Assembly: GCA_016930255.1 (NCBI GenBank)
Contig: JAFGHB010000074.1
Span: forward strand, 1-59,969
Origin: Methanomicrobia archaeon
GTDB lineage: Archaea; Halobacteriota; Syntropharchaeia; Alkanophagales; Methanospirareceae
Direction of reading: 5' to 3'
DNA: 59,969 nucleotides
Under the pieces are notes generated by a model. It was given only the letters and a program-made list of their open reading frames with translations. It had not been told where the DNA came from and did not search any database. Shown piece after piece: positions 5,283 through 58,434 of the stretch. The position numbers and the translations under genes are program-made. Every line of letters begins with the position of its first letter. Position 1 is the first letter of the stretch.

Positions 5283-6323
5283 TCAAAAAAGGGCCTTATT
5301 CGCCCTCACCCACTCCACTAACTTCTCAACACCTTCTCTCGGATTGACTTCTGGTCTCCATCCCAGCTCTTCCTTCGCTTTTGATATATCTGAGATATAT
5401 ACCTTCTGGTCGGAGGGTCGCCAGTTAGAATAACCCACTTTTGTCCGTTTGCTCGTTATCTCTTCTACGGAATCCAAAAGCTCCAGAAGGGATAAAGTGT
5501 TTTCATACCCGCCGCCGATATTGAACACTTCCTGCTTTGAATTACTAGTGATAAACAAATCGTAAACTTTAACTAAATCATTAATATACAAAACATCTCT
5601 AACCTGTTTTCCATCGCCATAAATCGTGATCGGCTTACCTAACAATGTCGCAATCGTGAACCACGCAACCCACCCTTGGTCTTCAACACCAAATTGCCTT
5701 GTTCCGTAGATGCAACTCATCCTGAAGACTCCGGTTTTCAAGCCATAAACACGTGCGTAATCCTGCACGTAGATATCACCCGTAAATTTTGAGGCCCCGT
5801 AGGGCGTATGTTCGCACAAATCGGTCGGAAAATCCTCTGGTATCCCTTCCCGATAGATATCATCAGCAAATTCATATCTCTTCGAGGATTCAAGAACCGC
5901 TATTTTGTTAACGTTATCGCCGTAAACTTTGTTCGTCGAGCAGTAAATCAGACAGGGATTGACTTCACTTAATCGTGCTGCTTCTAACACATTAAAGGTT
6001 CCAAGTGCATTAATCTCAAAGTCGGTTTTTGGATTCTCTAGGGATGTGGTCACCGCCGTCTGCGCCGCTGTATGAATAAGTACATCCACATCCTTCGCTA
6101 ATTCTGTTAGTTTATCCGCATCTCGAATATCACCCTTGATTAACTCGATCATTTCGTACTGCTTGAGATAATTCCAGTTATACAGCACATCTACTGCTTC
6201 ATAGCCCAAAAGCTCCGAACGAGAGAGATTATCAAATACCACAACATCGTCGCCCTGTTTTGCATAATATTCCGCAACATGGCTTCCCACAAAGCCCGCG
6301 CCGCCCGTTACTAATATTCTCAT
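5283..6323 (-). CDS. NAD-dependent epimerase, CDP-paratose 2-epimerase (RfbE)-like
   Basis: A 346-residue extended short-chain dehydrogenase. The Rossmann motif GGAGFVGS is at residues 7-14, the catalytic Ser/Thr region CSTNKVYGD near 128-136, and YGASK at 175-179. The strings AAQTAVTTSLENP, DFEINALGTFNVLEA and FRMSCIYGTRQFG are hallmarks of the CDP-paratose/CDP-tyvelose 2-epimerase branch, more so than of UDP-glucose 4-epimerases. It probably forms a deoxyhexose-type nucleotide sugar for surface glycans. No CDP-glucose pathway partner (RfbF, RfbG, RfbH) is in the window, so substrate specificity is uncertain. Its ATG overlaps the TGA of the upstream epimerase (ATGA, 6320-6323), showing coupled translation. 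Confidence 0.75.
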   Translation of the reverse strand: MRILVTGGAGFVGSHVAEYYAKQGDDVVVFDNLSRSELLGYEAVDVLYNWNYLKQYEMIELIKGDIRDADKLTELAKDVDVLIHTAAQTAVTTSLENPKTDFEINALGTFNVLEAARLSEVNPCLIYCSTNKVYGDNVNKIAVLESSKRYEFADDIYREGIPEDFPTDLCEHTPYGASKFTGDIYVQDYARVYGLKTGVFRMSCIYGTRQFGVEDQGWVAWFTIATLLGKPITIYGDGKQVRDVLYINDLVKVYDLFITSNSKQEVFNIGGGYENTLSLLELLDSVEEITSKRTKVGYSNWRPSDQKVYISDISKAKEELGWRPEVNPREGVEKLVEWVRANKALF

Positions 6324-7441
6324 CTTTCCACCAACCCCCTTTTCAAGAGTTCCTTATGCGCCACCTTGAACTTATCCTCTGCTTCTTCTCGCTCGCCCCA
6401 TTTCACAAATTCTTGCATTCCCGTTTCAAAATCGACCGTTGGCTTGTAGCCCAGCTTTTTCGTGAGCTTCGTAATGTCCGCAAAACAATGTCGTATATCA
6501 CCCGCTCGGTATTTTTGTGTTATTTCTGGTTCCAGCACTTTATCCTTGTTATACAAACCTAAAAGTACTTGCGCAATATCTAAAATATTCGTTGGGTTCC
6601 CCGTTCCCACATTGAATGCTTCATAATTTGCAGTTGCGTTTTCCATTGCTAATAGGTTTGCCTCCACGATGTCGTGAACAGAAACGAGATCGCGCGATTG
6701 CAAGCCTTCTTCAAAAATCAACGGAGGATTGTCATTCTTTATTCTAGAGGAAAAAATCGCGCAGACGCCCGTATAGGGATTGTTAAGTGATTGTCGTGGT
6801 CCATAGACATTAAAATAGCGAAGTGCAACAGTAGGAATGCCGTATGCCCTACCAACGGTTAAACACATCTCTTCCTGGTCCCGTTTCGTGATAGCATAAA
6901 TCGACGTCGGTTGTAATGGCTTATCTTCGCTCGTAGCGATTGGGTGTACGATTTTACCGCAATTTGGACATCGCATTTCCCATTCTCTTCTCTTTAACTG
7001 CTCCTCTGTTCTCAGCTTCGGATGTACGATACCGCAATCTTCGCATTCATATGCGCCTTCGCCGTAAATGCTCATCGAAGAGGCAACAATCACTTTTTTC
7101 ACTGAATGCTCTTCGTTCACTAACACATCCAGCAGCTTTGCCGTCGCCATCGTGTTCACGTCCACGTATTTCTCGACCTGATACATGCTCTGACCAACGC
7201 CTACCGCAGCAGCTTGATGAAACACTACCTCAGTATCTTCGACCGCCTTAGCTAGAACCCGTTCATCTCGGATATCTTCAAAACGATAGGTTGCCTTTTT
7301 GTTAAGATAATCTGGCTTTCCTTTTGTATGGACCTGCGGCTCCAGGTTATCGAGCACCAATACTTCGCTGCCCTTCTCCACGAGCTTATCCACCAGATGG
7401 CTTCCAATGAACCCTGCGCCGCCCGTTACTAAAATTTTCAT
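6320..7441 (-). CDS. NAD-dependent epimerase with zinc-ribbon insert, dTDP-L-rhamnose 4-epimerase-like
   Basis: 373 residues. It has the Rossmann motif GGAGFIGS at 7-14, SSMSIYGEG near 121-129 and the YAITK catalytic pair (Y182, K186). Between them sits an insertion with two CxxC pairs (C133/C136 and C158/C161) that should bind zinc. This insert and the context QLKRREWEMRCPNCGK characterise the dTDP-L-rhamnose 4-epimerase group, which makes dTDP-6-deoxy-L-talose; that substrate is a family-based inference. It is the first gene of the leftward glycan operon and is divergent from aglB across a 377-bp gap. No rmlABCD genes are present in the window to supply dTDP-rhamnose. Confidence 0.75.
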   Translation of the reverse strand: MKILVTGGAGFIGSHLVDKLVEKGSEVLVLDNLEPQVHTKGKPDYLNKKATYRFEDIRDERVLAKAVEDTEVVFHQAAAVGVGQSMYQVEKYVDVNTMATAKLLDVLVNEEHSVKKVIVASSMSIYGEGAYECEDCGIVHPKLRTEEQLKRREWEMRCPNCGKIVHPIATSEDKPLQPTSIYAITKRDQEEMCLTVGRAYGIPTVALRYFNVYGPRQSLNNPYTGVCAIFSSRIKNDNPPLIFEEGLQSRDLVSVHDIVEANLLAMENATANYEAFNVGTGNPTNILDIAQVLLGLYNKDKVLEPEITQKYRAGDIRHCFADITKLTKKLGYKPTVDFETGMQEFVKWGEREEAEDKFKVAHKELLKRGLVER

Positions 7442-7818: not shown

Positions 7819-10800
7819 GTGATAGGAAGAATGCAACGACAGCATGAACAAGCGGAAAAGCGAGCACGCAAAATCGGGATGAAGATTCCCGTACCGCCCC
7901 TCGGCGTAGAAATTGCTACGCTACTGTTCATCTTTCTCGGTGTGGAATCGCTCATTTCACTGCTGCTCGCTCCCGATAGATTGAACGCACAGGGCTATTT
8001 ACATATCGTTGCTCTTGCTGCGTTCCCCCTTGCCTACGGGATCTGGGCAGAGAAGAGATGGGGCTTTTATGCCACGCTTATCTTGATCGAACCTCTTCTG
8101 TTAATCTATCCATTCATCGTTGCCTTCAGCCCGTACTTTGGCATCGAATACAATTGGATATCCGTGCTCTCATTTGTCGCGGTGGGTTTGGCCGTTCTTC
8201 CTCTCCTCATCACAAACGAGCGCTATGCCGATTTGTTTAAAGGGACAAAATTGCAAATGGTCTTTGAAAAGCTCCCGTTTTTCAACGTGCTTTTCATTAT
8301 CTTCGGGCTTGCCCTCGTTATTAGAACGGTATTACCTTACGATACCGTCTTCAAAGATACCGTACGGTTCGCCTCTGATGATGCGGTATTTCATATGCGA
8401 TTGGTTGAGAACGCTTTATTCGGTGACCATTTTCCGTCTCGACCGTTCTTCGATGCCTATACCCTCTTCCCGCACGGAACGTATCTCCATTTTGCACCGC
8501 TCTTCGAGCAAATTATCATCTTCGCTACCTGGATTATTAGTCTTGGTGCACCGACGAAAGCGGTAATGGAAGCCGTCGGTGCATATTTCCCTGCTATACT
8601 TGGATCTTTGGTCGTTTTTCCCGTGTATATCATCGGCAAGGAGCTTTACAACAAATACGCGGGTTTTGTAGCTGCGGTATTAGTTGCAACGCTGCCGGGG
8701 CAGTTCCTCTCTCGTTCTATCATCGGGTTTACCGATCACCACGTTGCGGAAGCATTACTGAGCACCATACTGATGATGATTCTTATAATAGCGCTGAAAC
8801 GCGCGAAGGCTGATATATCTGAAGGAGATATGTTGAGTTGGTTCGAGAAAAAACCCAAAGAGTGGCTGAAGAGCAAGAACTCCCCCTTCCTCTGCTATAT
8901 CGCCCTGATTGTATTTCTCTTTTACGTGATACCGTGGGCGTGGTGGGTTTTTCTCGCGTTTATCCTCTTCCTTCTCGCACCGCTCATATTCACCGTCTGG
9001 AAAAAGCCTGATTCATATCTTCTTTACACCTGCTTAGCAGGTCTGGCTCTTGGATTTTATCTCCTCACCTGGTTTGCTGGGTTGGTCTTCATTTTCGTTA
9101 TCTTCGCATACGGCGTTATTCACTATACTATAAACGGCCTGCGTGGCGAGTCAAACGAATATATTTGCGTTACGCTCATTCCGGTATTCCTCATTGCGCT
9201 GCTGATGATCCTCCCGTTCTTCGGGCGCCCGTTCCCCTACGATATCCGGCATGTCGCTACGTTAAGCATGGGCATCATCGTTTTTTCCATTCCGCCCCTG
9301 TTCAAATACCTTACTACGAAAGTCGGATACCGACACGAGTTCGCAAGCGAAGAGCGCGGTAAAGCTGAGCCCAATAAGCCACAAACAAGTGGAACCGAGT
9401 ACGTGTGCCCGATCTGCGGTAAGAAATCAAAAACCGTTGGGATCGTAGAGCATATAAAACGGAAACATAGTAGTGAAGGTGAGTCAAAAAGCAACCGCAA
9501 AGTGATTAAACAATTCTTCGCTGACCATCCCGAGCTAAGCGCCGCTAAAAAATCAGGAATTGAGTCTATAAGTGGCTCGTCTCCGTTGGAAAAGATCGCC
9601 CACTACGAGTTCCTCTTACCTAGCCTTACGGTGCTCGTACTCTTTGTTCTGTCCTGGGTATTCTTCCCGTCAATATTAAACGCTTTCAACTGGTTCTCGC
9701 CCAGTGGCGTGCTCCTGACTATAGCGGAGAACCATCCAATGGACACGGAAACGGCCTGGATATGGTTTGGAATGCCGTTCTTCGTCTCACTCTTCGCCAT
9801 GGCACTCCTGGTTATAAACGTCGTGAAGCGAGACAGGTCGGAAGAGGTTTTGCTATTGGTGTGGAGCGTTATCATAATGATTTCAGTTGGAGGATTTGGG
9901 GTATTTGGCATTGAAACCATCGGAATGAATCGGTTCGCTTATTATTACACCGTCAATGCCGCGATCCTTACGGGATTCTTTGCTGCCGTTGCTTTTGACG
10001 CATTAACAGATATCGGCGAATCAGAAAAAAAAGAAGAATCTGCAGCAACCATTCAATCCGCTAAGAAGGGGGCAAAAGCGAAAAGCAGTGAGTCAACGCT
10101 TGATTTACGGCTTATCGTCTTTGCATTCGCCATCATGGCCATCGCCATCTTGGGCCTCATCCAGGTTGGCATTGAATCTCTCATTCCACTTGCTGGTATC
10201 GTCGCGATTTTCTTTGTCTGGATGCATGTGGCAAACACAAAGAAAGCGACTATAGAGAGACCACTCAGAAAAACGCTTGCCATCTTGCTCATTATGGTTA
10301 TTGTATTCTATCCGTTCCCCTTGAATGCCATTGCCAAGCCCTTTCCCTCTACCTCAAATCTACCGTTAAGTGCAGCTTACGCCATAAATACCGCCGAGCG
10401 GGGTATTGGCGCGGACGAAAACTGGTATGAAGCGCTGCGCTGGATGCGGAACAATACGCCAGAGCCCGGTGTTGATTATTATGGATTGTATGATGAACCT
10501 CCCCTAAATGACACCACTGGTGCCAGAGAGGATTATAACTACCCTTCATCAGCATATGGTGTCATGAGCTGGTGGGATTACGGCCACATGATCACTTGGA
10601 TTGCACATCGTATCCCAAACGCCAACCCGTTCCAGCAAGGTATCGGTAAGCCAATAGGAGAAGACCCTCCCGGAGCTAGCACGTTCTTTATATTAAACAC
10701 CGAAGAAGAGGCCAACGAGGTCGCCGACACACTCGGCGTACGATACGTGATCAGCGACTTCATGATGGCTGATATATGGAACGCCTACTACAACAAGTAC

Positions 10801-11709
10801 GGCGCGATGACCGTCTGGGCTGGTGACCCGGAACGGTACAGTAGCCTCTCGTACTATTATACCACGATGGAGGCACGGTTACATATGTTCGACGGTGCCC
10901 AAACCGATGTGAATGGCATGATCGTCCCCGCATTGGCTCACTATCGTCTGGTGCACGAAGCACCGACGTTTGTCCTCCCCATGATCATTATGGATGAGAA
11001 TACCGGAGCGATGTATTGGAGAAGTTTCTCCGCGGATTATAGTACAACCGCCACCCAAGCGCAGATTCTGCACGGGCATCTCTTCGATCTCCCCGTCGGC
11101 CCCTGGATCGAAGACCCCCTGAATGAGGAAGAGCTGCCTGAGATGTTAACGATGGCCTTTAATTCCTCTGGCATCCCGTTCTCTGAGCAGAGCACCGTGA
11201 GCAAGGTGAGTGAGGGCCAGTGGACGATCCGTGATGAGATCAACAATAACATATTCATCATTAACAAGGACGATGGTCAGTTGCAGGTTTATCTCTATGG
11301 AGTCAAGACCGGGCAGTCGAATGTCAAAGCATGGACGCCCGAATACATCCAGCCCGTGAGTTTCGTGAAAGTTTTTGAATACGTCGAGGGCGCACGAATA
11401 GAAGGGACTGCTTCTAATGGCTCTTTGATTACGATATCGACAGATATAACCACGAACTATGGAAGGACATTTACGTATGCTTTGGATACCACAGCCGCAG
11501 CTAATGACTCATATGAGTTTATCGTGCCGTATTCAACCGAAGGCCCTATGGATGGGGGTACGAATTTTGATGTCTCTGTCGCCCCGTACACACTAAAGGC
11601 AGGTCATTTCGAGAATGATACGATCGTATGGGATGTCGAGAAGGAGGTCCGAATCACCGAAGAAGAGGTTATAGATGGGAGAACGATACGAGTAGACCTC
11701 CTGGAGTGA
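7819..11709 (+). CDS. aglB: Oligosaccharyltransferase AglB (STT3 family) with zinc-finger insertion
   Basis: 1296 residues, longer than most archaeal AglB proteins. It transfers lipid-linked glycans to Asn-X-Ser/Thr sites on the outside of the membrane. The N-terminal half has about 13 membrane helices; the first external loop carries SDDAVFHMRLVENALF with the metal/substrate-binding acidic residues, and FTDHHVAEA follows. The catalytic signature WWDYG is at residues 918-922 (10570-10584), followed by a large soluble domain. Two additions are odd: a hydrophilic insertion around residues 505-590 holding a C2H2 zinc-finger pattern (C530, C533, H545, H550), and a lysine-rich loop near residues 735-755. 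The start is GTG at 7819, supported by AAGGAGG 8 nt upstream. It stands alone but is flanked by glycan-precursor genes. Confidence 0.93.
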   Translation: MIGRMQRQHEQAEKRARKIGMKIPVPPLGVEIATLLFIFLGVESLISLLLAPDRLNAQGYLHIVALAAFPLAYGIWAEKRWGFYATLILIEPLLLIYPFIVAFSPYFGIEYNWISVLSFVAVGLAVLPLLITNERYADLFKGTKLQMVFEKLPFFNVLFIIFGLALVIRTVLPYDTVFKDTVRFASDDAVFHMRLVENALFGDHFPSRPFFDAYTLFPHGTYLHFAPLFEQIIIFATWIISLGAPTKAVMEAVGAYFPAILGSLVVFPVYIIGKELYNKYAGFVAAVLVATLPGQFLSRSIIGFTDHHVAEALLSTILMMILIIALKRAKADISEGDMLSWFEKKPKEWLKSKNSPFLCYIALIVFLFYVIPWAWWVFLAFILFLLAPLIFTVWKKPDSYLLYTCLAGLALGFYLLTWFAGLVFIFVIFAYGVIHYTINGLRGESNEYICVTLIPVFLIALLMILPFFGRPFPYDIRHVATLSMGIIVFSIPPLFKYLTTKVGYRHEFASEERGKAEPNKPQTSGTEYVCPICGKKSKTVGIVEHIKRKHSSEGESKSNRKVIKQFFADHPELSAAKKSGIESISGSSPLEKIAHYEFLLPSLTVLVLFVLSWVFFPSILNAFNWFSPSGVLLTIAENHPMDTETAWIWFGMPFFVSLFAMALLVINVVKRDRSEEVLLLVWSVIIMISVGGFGVFGIETIGMNRFAYYYTVNAAILTGFFAAVAFDALTDIGESEKKEESAATIQSAKKGAKAKSSESTLDLRLIVFAFAIMAIAILGLIQVGIESLIPLAGIVAIFFVWMHVANTKKATIERPLRKTLAILLIMVIVFYPFPLNAIAKPFPSTSNLPLSAAYAINTAERGIGADENWYEALRWMRNNTPEPGVDYYGLYDEPPLNDTTGAREDYNYPSSAYGVMSWWDYGHMITWIAHRIPNANPFQQGIGKPIGEDPPGASTFFILNTEEEANEVADTLGVRYVISDFMMADIWNAYYNKYGAMTVWAGDPERYSSLSYYYTTMEARLHMFDGAQTDVNGMIVPALAHYRLVHEAPTFVLPMIIMDENTGAMYWRSFSADYSTTATQAQILHGHLFDLPVGPWIEDPLNEEELPEMLTMAFNSSGIPFSEQSTVSKVSEGQWTIRDEINNNIFIINKDDGQLQVYLYGVKTGQSNVKAWTPEYIQPVSFVKVFEYVEGARIEGTASNGSLITISTDITTNYGRTFTYALDTTAAANDSYEFIVPYSTEGPMDGGTNFDVSVAPYTLKAGHFENDTIVWDVEKEVRITEEEVIDGRTIRVDLLE

Positions 11710-56073: not shown

Positions 56074-58434
56074 TTACTGCTTCCTTCTCAGTACCAAGTA
56101 CGCCACTGCGAACAGTCCTGCAATTGCGAACACTGCTCCGAAACCTGGCTCTTCAGGCGTTGGGGTTGGTGTTGCTGTTGCTGCTGGCGTTGTCACAGGC
56201 GTTGGTGCTGCGGTTGGTGCTGCGGTTGGTGCTGCGGTTGGTGCTGCGGTTGGTGTTGCTGATGGTTTGCCGCACGCCGCACAGTTCGGATCAGGATCAC
56301 ACGGATCTTCTGGGTCGCTGCCCTGCAGCCACTCCACTATGTCAGAGTAGCCGTCGCCATCGGTGTCGAGTGCTGGTCCTCCGGAAACCCCTCCCACGGG
56401 ACCCGATTTTTTATTAACCGTGGTTGTCACCGTAACACTGGCAGTCTTGTTTGCATCACCCTGCGACGTTGCATTTACTGTTGTCGCGAAGATTCCTGCA
56501 GCGCCACCGGTCACGGTTAATGTAACATCCTTGGTTTCAGCCGCCGCTAACGTCACTTCTGGATTTATACTCAGCGTTCCCGGTCCTGACACTATTGTTA
56601 GATTAATTGTATCCTCGGTATTTCCCGTATTCTCCACCGTTAAGGTGTACGTTACCGTCTGCCCTTCCGTGATAATCGCTGTGGTCTTATCTGGTGTGAG
56701 CGTAACGCCGTACTGTTTCGCCACAACCGTGGTCGTCACCGTAACACTGGCGGTCTGCTCTGAGGCCTGTGACGTTGCATTCACCGTTGTCACATAATTG
56801 GTAACATCGGTACCATTAACAGACAACGTAACCATCTTACTCTCACCCACTGCTACAGCCACTTCCGGATTGATACTCAGCGTTCCCGGTCCTGACACTA
56901 TTGTTATGTTGATTGTGTCATTTACGTTCCCCGTGTTCGTCACCGTTAAGGTGTATGTTGCCGTCTCACCTTGCACAATCGTCTTCGCGTTCTCATCAAC
57001 GGTGAACTCGAAGCCGTAGACCTCGGGAACGGTATATTGTGCCGTATCATTTGCCGTATTACCAGCCTTATCGGTCACCACTACTTCCACATCGTGCGTT
57101 CCCGGTAAGAATTCGGCCTTTATCGTTCCATTCCACGGACTGTTCTGCTTCGTCAGTTGCTGGCCATTTGCCGTCACCATTGCGACACCACTCAATGCAT
57201 CCGTGGCATTAACGGTTACAAGTATGTCTCCCTTTGGATCGGGCGTGGTTGGATCAAGGTCCACAGCAATAATCTGTGGATTGACAATGTCTTTCCTCAC
57301 GGTCAAATTCTTCGTTGTCTCAACATTTGGCGTCTCGTTCTTGTCCACCGAGTAGTACCAGATCGTCGTCTCGTCCTCTGCAGCTACCGTCACCTTGAAA
57401 GTCTGCTCGGTGATATCCGAAACCAGCCCTGCATCCGGACCGACAGCGGTTGTGTTGTTTACCGTTGTCCACGCTCCTTCGCCCGACGTCGTCGAGAAGT
57501 TAGTGTAAGCAACGCCGCTAGCATCAGTGCGAAGAAAGGATAGCATCACCGGCGAATTTGTCCAGTTCAATTGATGCTCCGTCGGTATTGGACTCGGCTC
57601 ACCAGGCAAATTAGGCGCGGTCACCGCTGTTGTCGGTGCTGTAGTGTCGATCGGGCATGCATTCTCGGCATCCGGTGTTGGCGTGTCCATCTTCGTGAAG
57701 TCTGCCGCGTCATCATCGGTGTCAACACCGTTCGGACATCGGCCCGTTGATTTACCCGCGTCCGGTGCCGGCGCATTGCCAGAAGTACCATATCCGACCT
57801 GATCGATAATCCCACCGCTATCGTTCTTCAGTATGATGATATCGCCGCCATTATTCAGCCACCCACTTGCAATGCTATAAACCGCGTAATCGCCTACTGC
57901 GATGGTTCCCAACGCTGTGAGTGATTTGCTGTTACCAACCTCATCCTCCAGTGTCCACCCGGTCAGATCAACCGCCTCTGCGCCTTTGTTGTACAGCTCT
58001 ACCCATTCCGTGGTGTTGTCCGCGACGAACTCGTTTATCACGACCACAGGTGCCGCTGGCGGTGCTTGGAGGGTCATAGTAGGCGCTTCATCCGCACCGA
58101 CGCCTGATATCGTTACAGATACAGGTCCTGCGGTGTAGCCATCACCCGTGTCGATTACCATTACGTATAGCACATCATCGACCGTAGCCGCATAACCTGC
58201 GATTAACTCAGCATCAACTACATATTTGTTGGCCTGATATTGACCTATCGTAGCCGTCGTACTGTTAGTTTCGTCTATGTAATATAAAAGTACCGTATGT
58301 CCATCTGCCGGTGTGCTATCCGCCGCATCGTTAACCGTTCCACCAATCCAATACGATGCTAATGCTTCTCCTGTCAGTAGTGCCAGAAAGGCCACTGCAA
58401 GAACCAGTACAAAAACAGTTCTCTTCTTTATCAT
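56074..58434 (-). CDS. Secreted surface protein with lamin-tail domain and PGF-CTERM anchor
   Basis: 786 residues. A signal peptide (about 1-26) is followed by a ~80-residue module shared with the next gene (SYWIGGTVND), a lamin-tail domain (about 106-190, VVINEFVADNTTEWVELYNK), Ig-like or bacterial-adhesin-like segments (about 265-460), two ~95-residue domains with the TATYTLTVTNTGNVNDTI pattern (about 475-675), an EF-hand/dockerin-like calcium loop (DTDGDGYSDIVEW), a Thr/Pro/Ala linker (TAAP repeats), and a C-terminal PGFGAVFAIAGLF helix followed by RRK. That tail is the PGF-CTERM signal for archaeosortase A, which cuts it and attaches a lipid. It carries many Asn-X-Ser/Thr sites, plausible targets for AglB. 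It is cell-surface or S-layer-associated. Confidence 0.9.
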   Translation of the reverse strand: MIKKRTVFVLVLAVAFLALLTGEALASYWIGGTVNDAADSTPADGHTVLLYYIDETNSTTATIGQYQANKYVVDAELIAGYAATVDDVLYVMVIDTGDGYTAGPVSVTISGVGADEAPTMTLQAPPAAPVVVINEFVADNTTEWVELYNKGAEAVDLTGWTLEDEVGNSKSLTALGTIAVGDYAVYSIASGWLNNGGDIIILKNDSGGIIDQVGYGTSGNAPAPDAGKSTGRCPNGVDTDDDAADFTKMDTPTPDAENACPIDTTAPTTAVTAPNLPGEPSPIPTEHQLNWTNSPVMLSFLRTDASGVAYTNFSTTSGEGAWTTVNNTTAVGPDAGLVSDITEQTFKVTVAAEDETTIWYYSVDKNETPNVETTKNLTVRKDIVNPQIIAVDLDPTTPDPKGDILVTVNATDALSGVAMVTANGQQLTKQNSPWNGTIKAEFLPGTHDVEVVVTDKAGNTANDTAQYTVPEVYGFEFTVDENAKTIVQGETATYTLTVTNTGNVNDTINITIVSGPGTLSINPEVAVAVGESKMVTLSVNGTDVTNYVTTVNATSQASEQTASVTVTTTVVAKQYGVTLTPDKTTAIITEGQTVTYTLTVENTGNTEDTINLTIVSGPGTLSINPEVTLAAAETKDVTLTVTGGAAGIFATTVNATSQGDANKTASVTVTTTVNKKSGPVGGVSGGPALDTDGDGYSDIVEWLQGSDPEDPCDPDPNCAACGKPSATPTAAPTAAPTAAPTAAPTPVTTPAATATPTPTPEEPGFGAVFAIAGLFAVAYLVLRRKQ
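56204..56251 (-). repeat. 12-bp repeat encoding the TAAP linker
   Basis: GGTGCTGCGGTT is repeated four times exactly (56204-56215, 56216-56227, 56228-56239, 56240-56251). On the coding strand it encodes the Thr-Ala-Ala-Pro linker before the PGF-CTERM anchor. Exact copies suggest slippage; linker length may vary between strains. Confidence 0.85.

Follow-up and report, generated by a model that had tools for sequence, protein, structure and literature searches.

Among the closest described systems is the oligosaccharyltransferase AglB of A. fulgidus (PDB 7e9s, 3waj, 5gmy). According to the available part of PMC8342417, enzymes of this family have 13 transmembrane (TM) helices, and the A. fulgidus AglB carries its TIXE motif on external loop 5 (EL5, residues 331-374). 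In the scheme proposed there, the gap between TM8 and TM9 is where the lipid-linked donor comes in, and TM9 moves. In Haloferax, one and the same protein, the S-layer glycoprotein, receives its N-glycans through AglB and is cleaved by ArtA (PMC4245038 and PMC8241124, in the portions available), and ANME-1 archaea have been reported to be without archaeosortases A and C and without S-layer domains (available part of PMC5244752).

Here we describe a lineage-specific module on an otherwise ordinary AglB, together with its link to proteins that accompany archaeosortases; both appear to be new. To our knowledge, the coordination of archaeal N-glycosylation with archaeosortase processing, or with delivery to the export machinery, is not settled. 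Among the titles and abstract beginnings listed for matching open-licence PMC papers, we found no description of a finger on AglB or of its archaeosortase link, and in PMC9263693 the term 'zinc finger' occurs only within a reference title.

The aglB gene and the insert in its membrane part

The window, meaning the whole stretch of 59,969 nucleotides that was analysed, is contig C74 of the genome we call G000. It contains aglB with the following features.

7819..11709, + strand: aglB, archaeal oligosaccharyltransferase of 1296 aa with a GTG start (Pfam/NCBIfam matches, structural match)
9244..9321, + strand: predicted transmembrane helix 8, residues 476-501 (H337-362 of model m28804dad14d1)
9325..9594, + strand: hydrophilic insert, residues 503-592 (~90 aa), in the TM8-TM9 turn (AglB alignment)
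9397..9471, + strand: best-conserved core of the insert, residues 527-551 (EY-CPICGKKS-GI-EHIK-KH; pN/pS and pairwise identity)
9406..9468, + strand: Cys2His2 finger, C530-x2-C533-x11-H545-x4-H550, residues 530-550
9406-9408, 9415-9417, 9451-9453 and 9466-9468, + strand: codons of the finger ligands C530, C533, H545 and H550
9487..9525, + strand: post-finger helix, residues 557-569 (KSNRKVIKQFFAD; H58-70 of the insert model), which matches the partner tails described below
9613..9663, + strand: predicted transmembrane helix 9, residues 599-615 (H460-476 of model m28804dad14d1)
9718..9729, + strand: TIXE motif T634-I-A-E637 on external loop 5 (alignment to A. fulgidus AglB 322-450)

The 7819-11709 frame exceeds the Pfam cut-offs for AglB_core (102.3 bits, cut-off 27), STT3 (83.3, cut-off 24.5) and AglB_L1 (72, cut-off 23.6). 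It also passes NCBIfam TIGR04154, whose name includes 'archaeosortase A system-associated', with 564.7 bits against a cut-off of 450. The TIXE motif reads TIAE (residues 634-637), and the C-terminal domain contains the WWDYG motif as SWWDYG. Residues 140-855 were modelled with AlphaFold2 (m28804dad14d1; 42 sequences, mean pLDDT 74.4, pTM 0.77), and the model matches A. fulgidus AglB 7e9s_A with Z 31.8 and rmsd 3.7 over 462 aligned residues, which points to an AglB-type membrane fold. Among the nearest named matches of this AglB are MAGs labelled 'Methanosarcinales archaeon' and 'Methanophagales', at 57-75% identity, and G000 is related to Methanophagales / ANME-1. By its domains, motifs and predicted fold, the protein is a predicted sugar-transferring AglB of an ANME-1 clade. 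It shares its enzyme family, its membrane fold and a TIXE motif on EL5 with the A. fulgidus AglB. There, the finger between TM8 and TM9 is missing, and the stretches that flank residues 469-598 of our protein lie only 57 residues apart.

The same genome carries a second AglB (C51:21687-24284, a 911-residue frame), in which a profile of the inserts (A2, below) found no match. Beside aglB, at 6320-7441 on the - strand, is an epimerase-like sugar enzyme that starts with MKILVTGGAGFIGSH. It has two internal CxxC pairs (ECEDCG...CPNCGK) that form a zinc-ribbon-like insert.

An earlier note on this DNA had read C-x2-C-x11-H-x4-H at residues 530-550 of AglB, within a hydrophilic insertion between membrane helices. 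The reading is exact: residues 530-550 are CPICGKKSKTVGIVEHIKRKH, encoded by 9406-9468, and both the alignment and the model place the insertion between two helices. In most other aligned AglBs, the anchors flanking the insert are 1-3 residues apart. The protein contains a single match to the pattern C-x2-C-x9-13-H-x3-5-H, and none of 20,000 shuffled versions had one. The frame had been called intact and not an obvious artefact, and indeed the insert with its four ligands recurs in 9/9 aligned orthologues and in a tenth genome (G059). Chance and assembly artefact are ruled out as sources of the finger by the shuffles and by the ten genomes that carry the insert.

Helix 476-501 is numbered TM8 because EL5 comes after TM9 in the A. 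fulgidus AglB. The TIXE motif at residues 634-637 marks EL5 and the helix preceding it is TM9, so the insert lies in the cytoplasmic TM8-TM9 turn. By alignment, model and published topology, the finger faces the cytoplasm. The earlier note had placed it on that side and had named an outside-facing loop as grounds for giving up the idea; the alignment, the model and the superposition on 7e9s agree with the topology in the available part of PMC8342417, and the loop does not face outside. An external placement is ruled out by the TIXE/EL5 alignment, the membrane model and the 7e9s superposition. Since the donor is proposed to enter between TM8 and TM9 (PMC8342417, as available), the module is attached to the presumed donor gate.

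AlphaFold, which the earlier note had suggested as a check, predicts a beta-beta-alpha finger with strands at 527-529 and 536-538 and a helix at 539-550. The fold appears both when the insert is modelled by itself and in the model of the membrane part (residues 140-855); the two are predictions of moderate confidence. Mean pLDDT is about 79-82 in the finger-holding blocks of both models. A second predicted helix starts at 557, and its block has a mean pLDDT of 63-81 in the insert model. Foldseek searches with the insert model returned nothing at E <= 0.001, with C2H2 chains among the top rows at E about 1, and VIA-align gave two rows below Z 3 (KCMF1; Z 2.8 and 2.6). We consider the finger to be genuine and probably zinc-stabilised.

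Classical C2H2 fingers have a spacing of x12 between the Cys pair and the His pair. None of the curated Pfam C2H2 families was matched above its cut-off, the best being zf-Di19 with 24.5 bits against 27.5, and the first insert member matched no Pfam family above cut-off at all. The AglB finger therefore appears to fall outside the named Pfam C2H2 families. Its best sequence matches, though sub-threshold, are the eukaryotic zf-Di19 (PF05605) and ARS2/SRRT (PF04959) fingers, with which it shares the Cys2His2 set and the beta-beta-alpha prediction. It differs from them in its x11 or x9 spacing, in being a single finger and in having its own C-terminal helix. Closer to hand are the N-terminal C2H2 fingers of ANME-1 TPR proteins (L116, L141 and others), which come from the same organisms and share the pattern CPxCG...EH...H and the x11 spacing. 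Their helix starts with NL, however, where the AglB insert has GI; they lack a match to the post-finger helix, and their profile match to the AglB insert is weaker.

Conservation and history of the insert

All four ligands are kept in each of the 10 insert-bearing AglBs, which come from three genera of ANME-1, a group of methane-oxidising archaea; in the AglB of G003 (L008), the spacing is x9 in place of x11, two residues fewer. Over nine orthologues, pN/pS was 0.175 for residues 527-551 and, in the remaining insert, 0.50 before this core and 0.42 after it. The STT3 membrane part gave 0.224 and the C-terminal domain 0.280 for the same orthologues; with pS at 0.51-0.59, near saturation, all of these ratios are rough and of comparative use only. 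Mean pairwise identity was 0.81 for the finger and 0.58 for the rest of the insert, and 1 in 20,000 column permutations was equally extreme. Several residues that are not ligands, including K535, G541 and I542, are invariant in the orthologue alignment. Among the AglBs examined, none keeps the long loop with a broken Cys/His set.

We removed the insert before building an AglB tree of 32 rows. L037 and L038 stood in for their duplicates L010 and L019, which were left out, and the L003 sequence was taken only up to an in-frame TAG. (L031-L038 largely repeat genomes held under G handles, and same-contig duplicates were counted once.) The 10 finger-bearing rows need two changes on this tree. Read together with the alignment, it points to a single gain, at the base of a clade of 11 rows, and to a single loss, in L037. 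This ANME-1-LC sequence is nested inside the finger clade; its finger is gone and a fragment resembling the post-finger helix remains, so the finger is dispensable there. STT3/AglB proteins had been said not to carry such a module usually, and this description holds, with the finger confined to 10/32 rows in one clade and missing from the solved AglB in the alignment.

At the same TM8-TM9 turn, the AglBs L020 (G017) and L023 (G015) have unrelated Gly-rich loops of 35-36 residues with no Cys/His. The turn appears, from the sequences, to tolerate insertions more than once. A separate peculiarity concerns the AglB L003 (G001) / L031, which has an in-frame TAG near residue 703 and is otherwise intact, giving frames of 704 and 592 aa. 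The position is seemingly Gln in L117 (GQNRFAYY), and the TAG may be a sequencing error, a pseudogene or recoding.

Relatives of the insert beside archaeosortases

Profile A2, built from AglB inserts alone, was run on two sets of 59 and 51 genomes, 74 of them distinct, at E <= 0.01, and matched 10 AglBs and 16 places outside AglB. In 13 of these 16, the match is the C-terminal tail of a small membrane protein that is encoded next to an archaeosortase or fused with it; one of the 13 adjoins a broken archaeosortase fragment. The remaining three are an orphan finger of the same type, a TPR protein and a frame with three stops. We call the small membrane proteins archaeosortase partners; this is a working name, as those tested miss the cut-off of 35 bits for NF041730 (XrtH-associated), with 19.3 (L106), 19.0 (L107), 20.9 (L114) and 14.8 bits (L189). 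A combined profile (A4) was run on 392 genomes of the phylum and gave 27 places of at least 53 bits, 10 AglBs and 17 others. Below these came a contig-edge fragment in G125 (30.6 bits), and the next matches, at most 25 bits, covered mainly the finger. Because A4 contains archaeosortase tails that it later matched, the evidence for homology is the A2 search and the post-finger test below.

The surroundings of the 17 places and the G125 fragment give 18 stretches. Three are fused to an archaeosortase, and 11/18 follow immediately downstream of an archaeosortase in the same orientation. In L164 an archaeosortase is nearby with another partner copy in between, and the frame of the finger differs from that of the membrane part; in L160 the accompanying archaeosortase is only a broken fragment. 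No archaeosortase was seen around L176, the G125 fragment, which lies at a contig end. In L162 (841-4074, - strand), the orphan finger is in frame with the start of a protein that we take, from its sequence, to be an isoleucyl-tRNA synthetase, and the remaining part of an archaeosortase partner is absent upstream. All of the archaeosortases tested (8/8) passed TIGR04178 (cut-off 23 bits), with 52.0 (L114), 50.5 (L119), 46.2 (L121), 56.2 (L165), 53.7 (L170), 46.3 (L171), 43.2 (L173) and 55.3 bits (L189).

When A2 was compared profile to profile with the partner tails, the probability was 98.8 over 44 columns, helix included, for families that had themselves been chosen by A2; the control, A2 against the TPR-protein fingers, gave 86.1 over 33 columns, mostly finger. 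We also searched 23 tails with a profile of the post-finger stretch. Partners took all of the ten best rows (best E 3.2e-6); of the TPR controls, six were listed at E >= 1.1 and two were unlisted. The best control equals or outscores five of the 15 partner tails, so the post-finger helix is unequally preserved. Taken together, the comparisons indicate that the shared unit is the finger plus the following helix and that the AglB insert is homologous to the partner tails.

The partners come from ANME-1 and two other archaeal families and resemble XrtH_assoc (NF041730). They differ from AglB in carrying the module at the C-terminus rather than within a loop, and the host is not a glycosyltransferase. 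Several of the tails follow the last membrane helix by way of basic linkers, from which we infer that they are cytoplasmic. Charge separates the two forms as well: the basic AglB finger has a net charge of +4 or +5 in 9/9 proteins, in contrast to the near-neutral finger of 15 partners (mean -0.5). The AglB and partner fingers may therefore bind different things.

Across 51 genomes of the window's family, the finger occurs on AglB in 10 and on a partner in 9, with none carrying it on both. The chance of zero overlap is 0.12, which is not significant, and the 51 genomes are related; a claim of simple mutual exclusion was dropped for these reasons. The zero overlap gives no support for a joint action of the two fingers within a cell. 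In G000 itself, the archaeosortase partner (L189) is without a finger. At this locus (G000:C63, 2217-3497), an archaeosortase stands beside the finger-less partner, and a PGF-CTERM gene lies just upstream.

Set beside the published statement that ANME-1 is without archaeosortases A and C (PMC5244752), archaeosortase-family matches above cut-off were found in 46/51 genomes of the family, with subtypes assigned for part of them. G000 has three matches to TIGR04178 and 11 PGF-CTERM matches above cut-off. At 56074-58434 on the - strand, the window encodes a secreted protein of 786 aa with a PGF-CTERM signal (TIGR04126, 28 bits against 24.5). Judging from this signal, the protein is likely an archaeosortase substrate in the same window as aglB.

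Possible roles of the module

The module is found on two enzymes of one pathway, and we therefore infer that it is best read as a docking module. In this reading, to which we give a probability of roughly one half, the AglB finger and the partner tails form a cytoplasmic zinc-stabilised docking module of surface-protein maturation. The finger plus helix in the TM8-TM9 turn would bind a cytosolic or membrane-peripheral protein, and through docking the enzymes of N-glycosylation and C-terminal sorting would reach their substrates or the export site. The earlier note had proposed binding to nucleic acid, the ribosome or another protein. Its finger-like module, unusual for AglB and cytoplasmic, has stood up, while the second home on the archaeosortase partners had been missed. 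'Another protein' is the better fit of the three because the same module sits on archaeosortase-associated membrane proteins with non-basic fingers.

One alternative is that the basic finger binds rRNA or other RNA and keeps AglB close to ribosomes during translation, so that glycosylation is co-translational. The cytoplasmic side and the strictly basic charge of the AglB finger would suit such a role, as would a weak Pfam resemblance to Ribosomal_L37ae (two of nine members, best E 0.002), but the homologous partner fingers are near neutral and the first member matches no Pfam family above cut-off. The positive-inside rule predicts positive charge on cytoplasmic loops, and so the charge of this loop is also expected without a role for RNA. 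We regard RNA docking as unlikely, though the basic AglB form is compatible with binding to RNA, the ribosome or acidic lipid. A different idea starts from the position of the module in the turn joining TM8 and TM9, at the presumed entry of the donor lipid (PMC8342417, available part). The module could tether or stiffen this hairpin and control the entry of lipid-linked oligosaccharide; zinc or redox state might be the signal, or the module might bind donor-making or donor-flipping enzymes. Such control is quite improbable given that the archaeosortase partners carry the module as a C-terminal tail and have no such gate, that the L037 enzyme is without the module and that the finger is flanked by weakly constrained linkers (pN/pS 0.42-0.50).

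The loss of the finger in L037 and the Gly-rich loops at the same place in other lineages (L020, L023) would also agree with a self-contained zinc-binding fold that shields a long loop from proteolysis and has no binding partner. We give this explanation little credence, since the constraint on the finger exceeds that on the STT3 membrane part, invariance extends to the non-ligand residues K535, G541 and I542, and one particular other protein of the pathway has the same module. The docking reading can itself be taken further, to a mobile cytoplasmic zinc-finger module that marks two membrane systems with no other kinship, AglB and the archaeosortase partners, and brings both to a single cytosolic scaffold where export takes place. 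Whether AglB or the partner carries the module would then vary between ANME-1 lineages, and the assembly would be an archaeal counterpart of the eukaryotic translocon-bound glycosylation complex, with its hook on the donor-entry gate of AglB. This extended version is speculative, and we hold it as a rather doubtful possibility.

If the module were only structural, it would be a lineage-specific decoration of limited interest. The AglB insert also lends itself to probing, in a natural variant, the donor gate formed by TM8 and TM9. A module common to AglB and the archaeosortase partners would, through its binding partner, offer a concrete handle on how archaeal N-glycosylation is coordinated with archaeosortase processing or with delivery to the export machinery.
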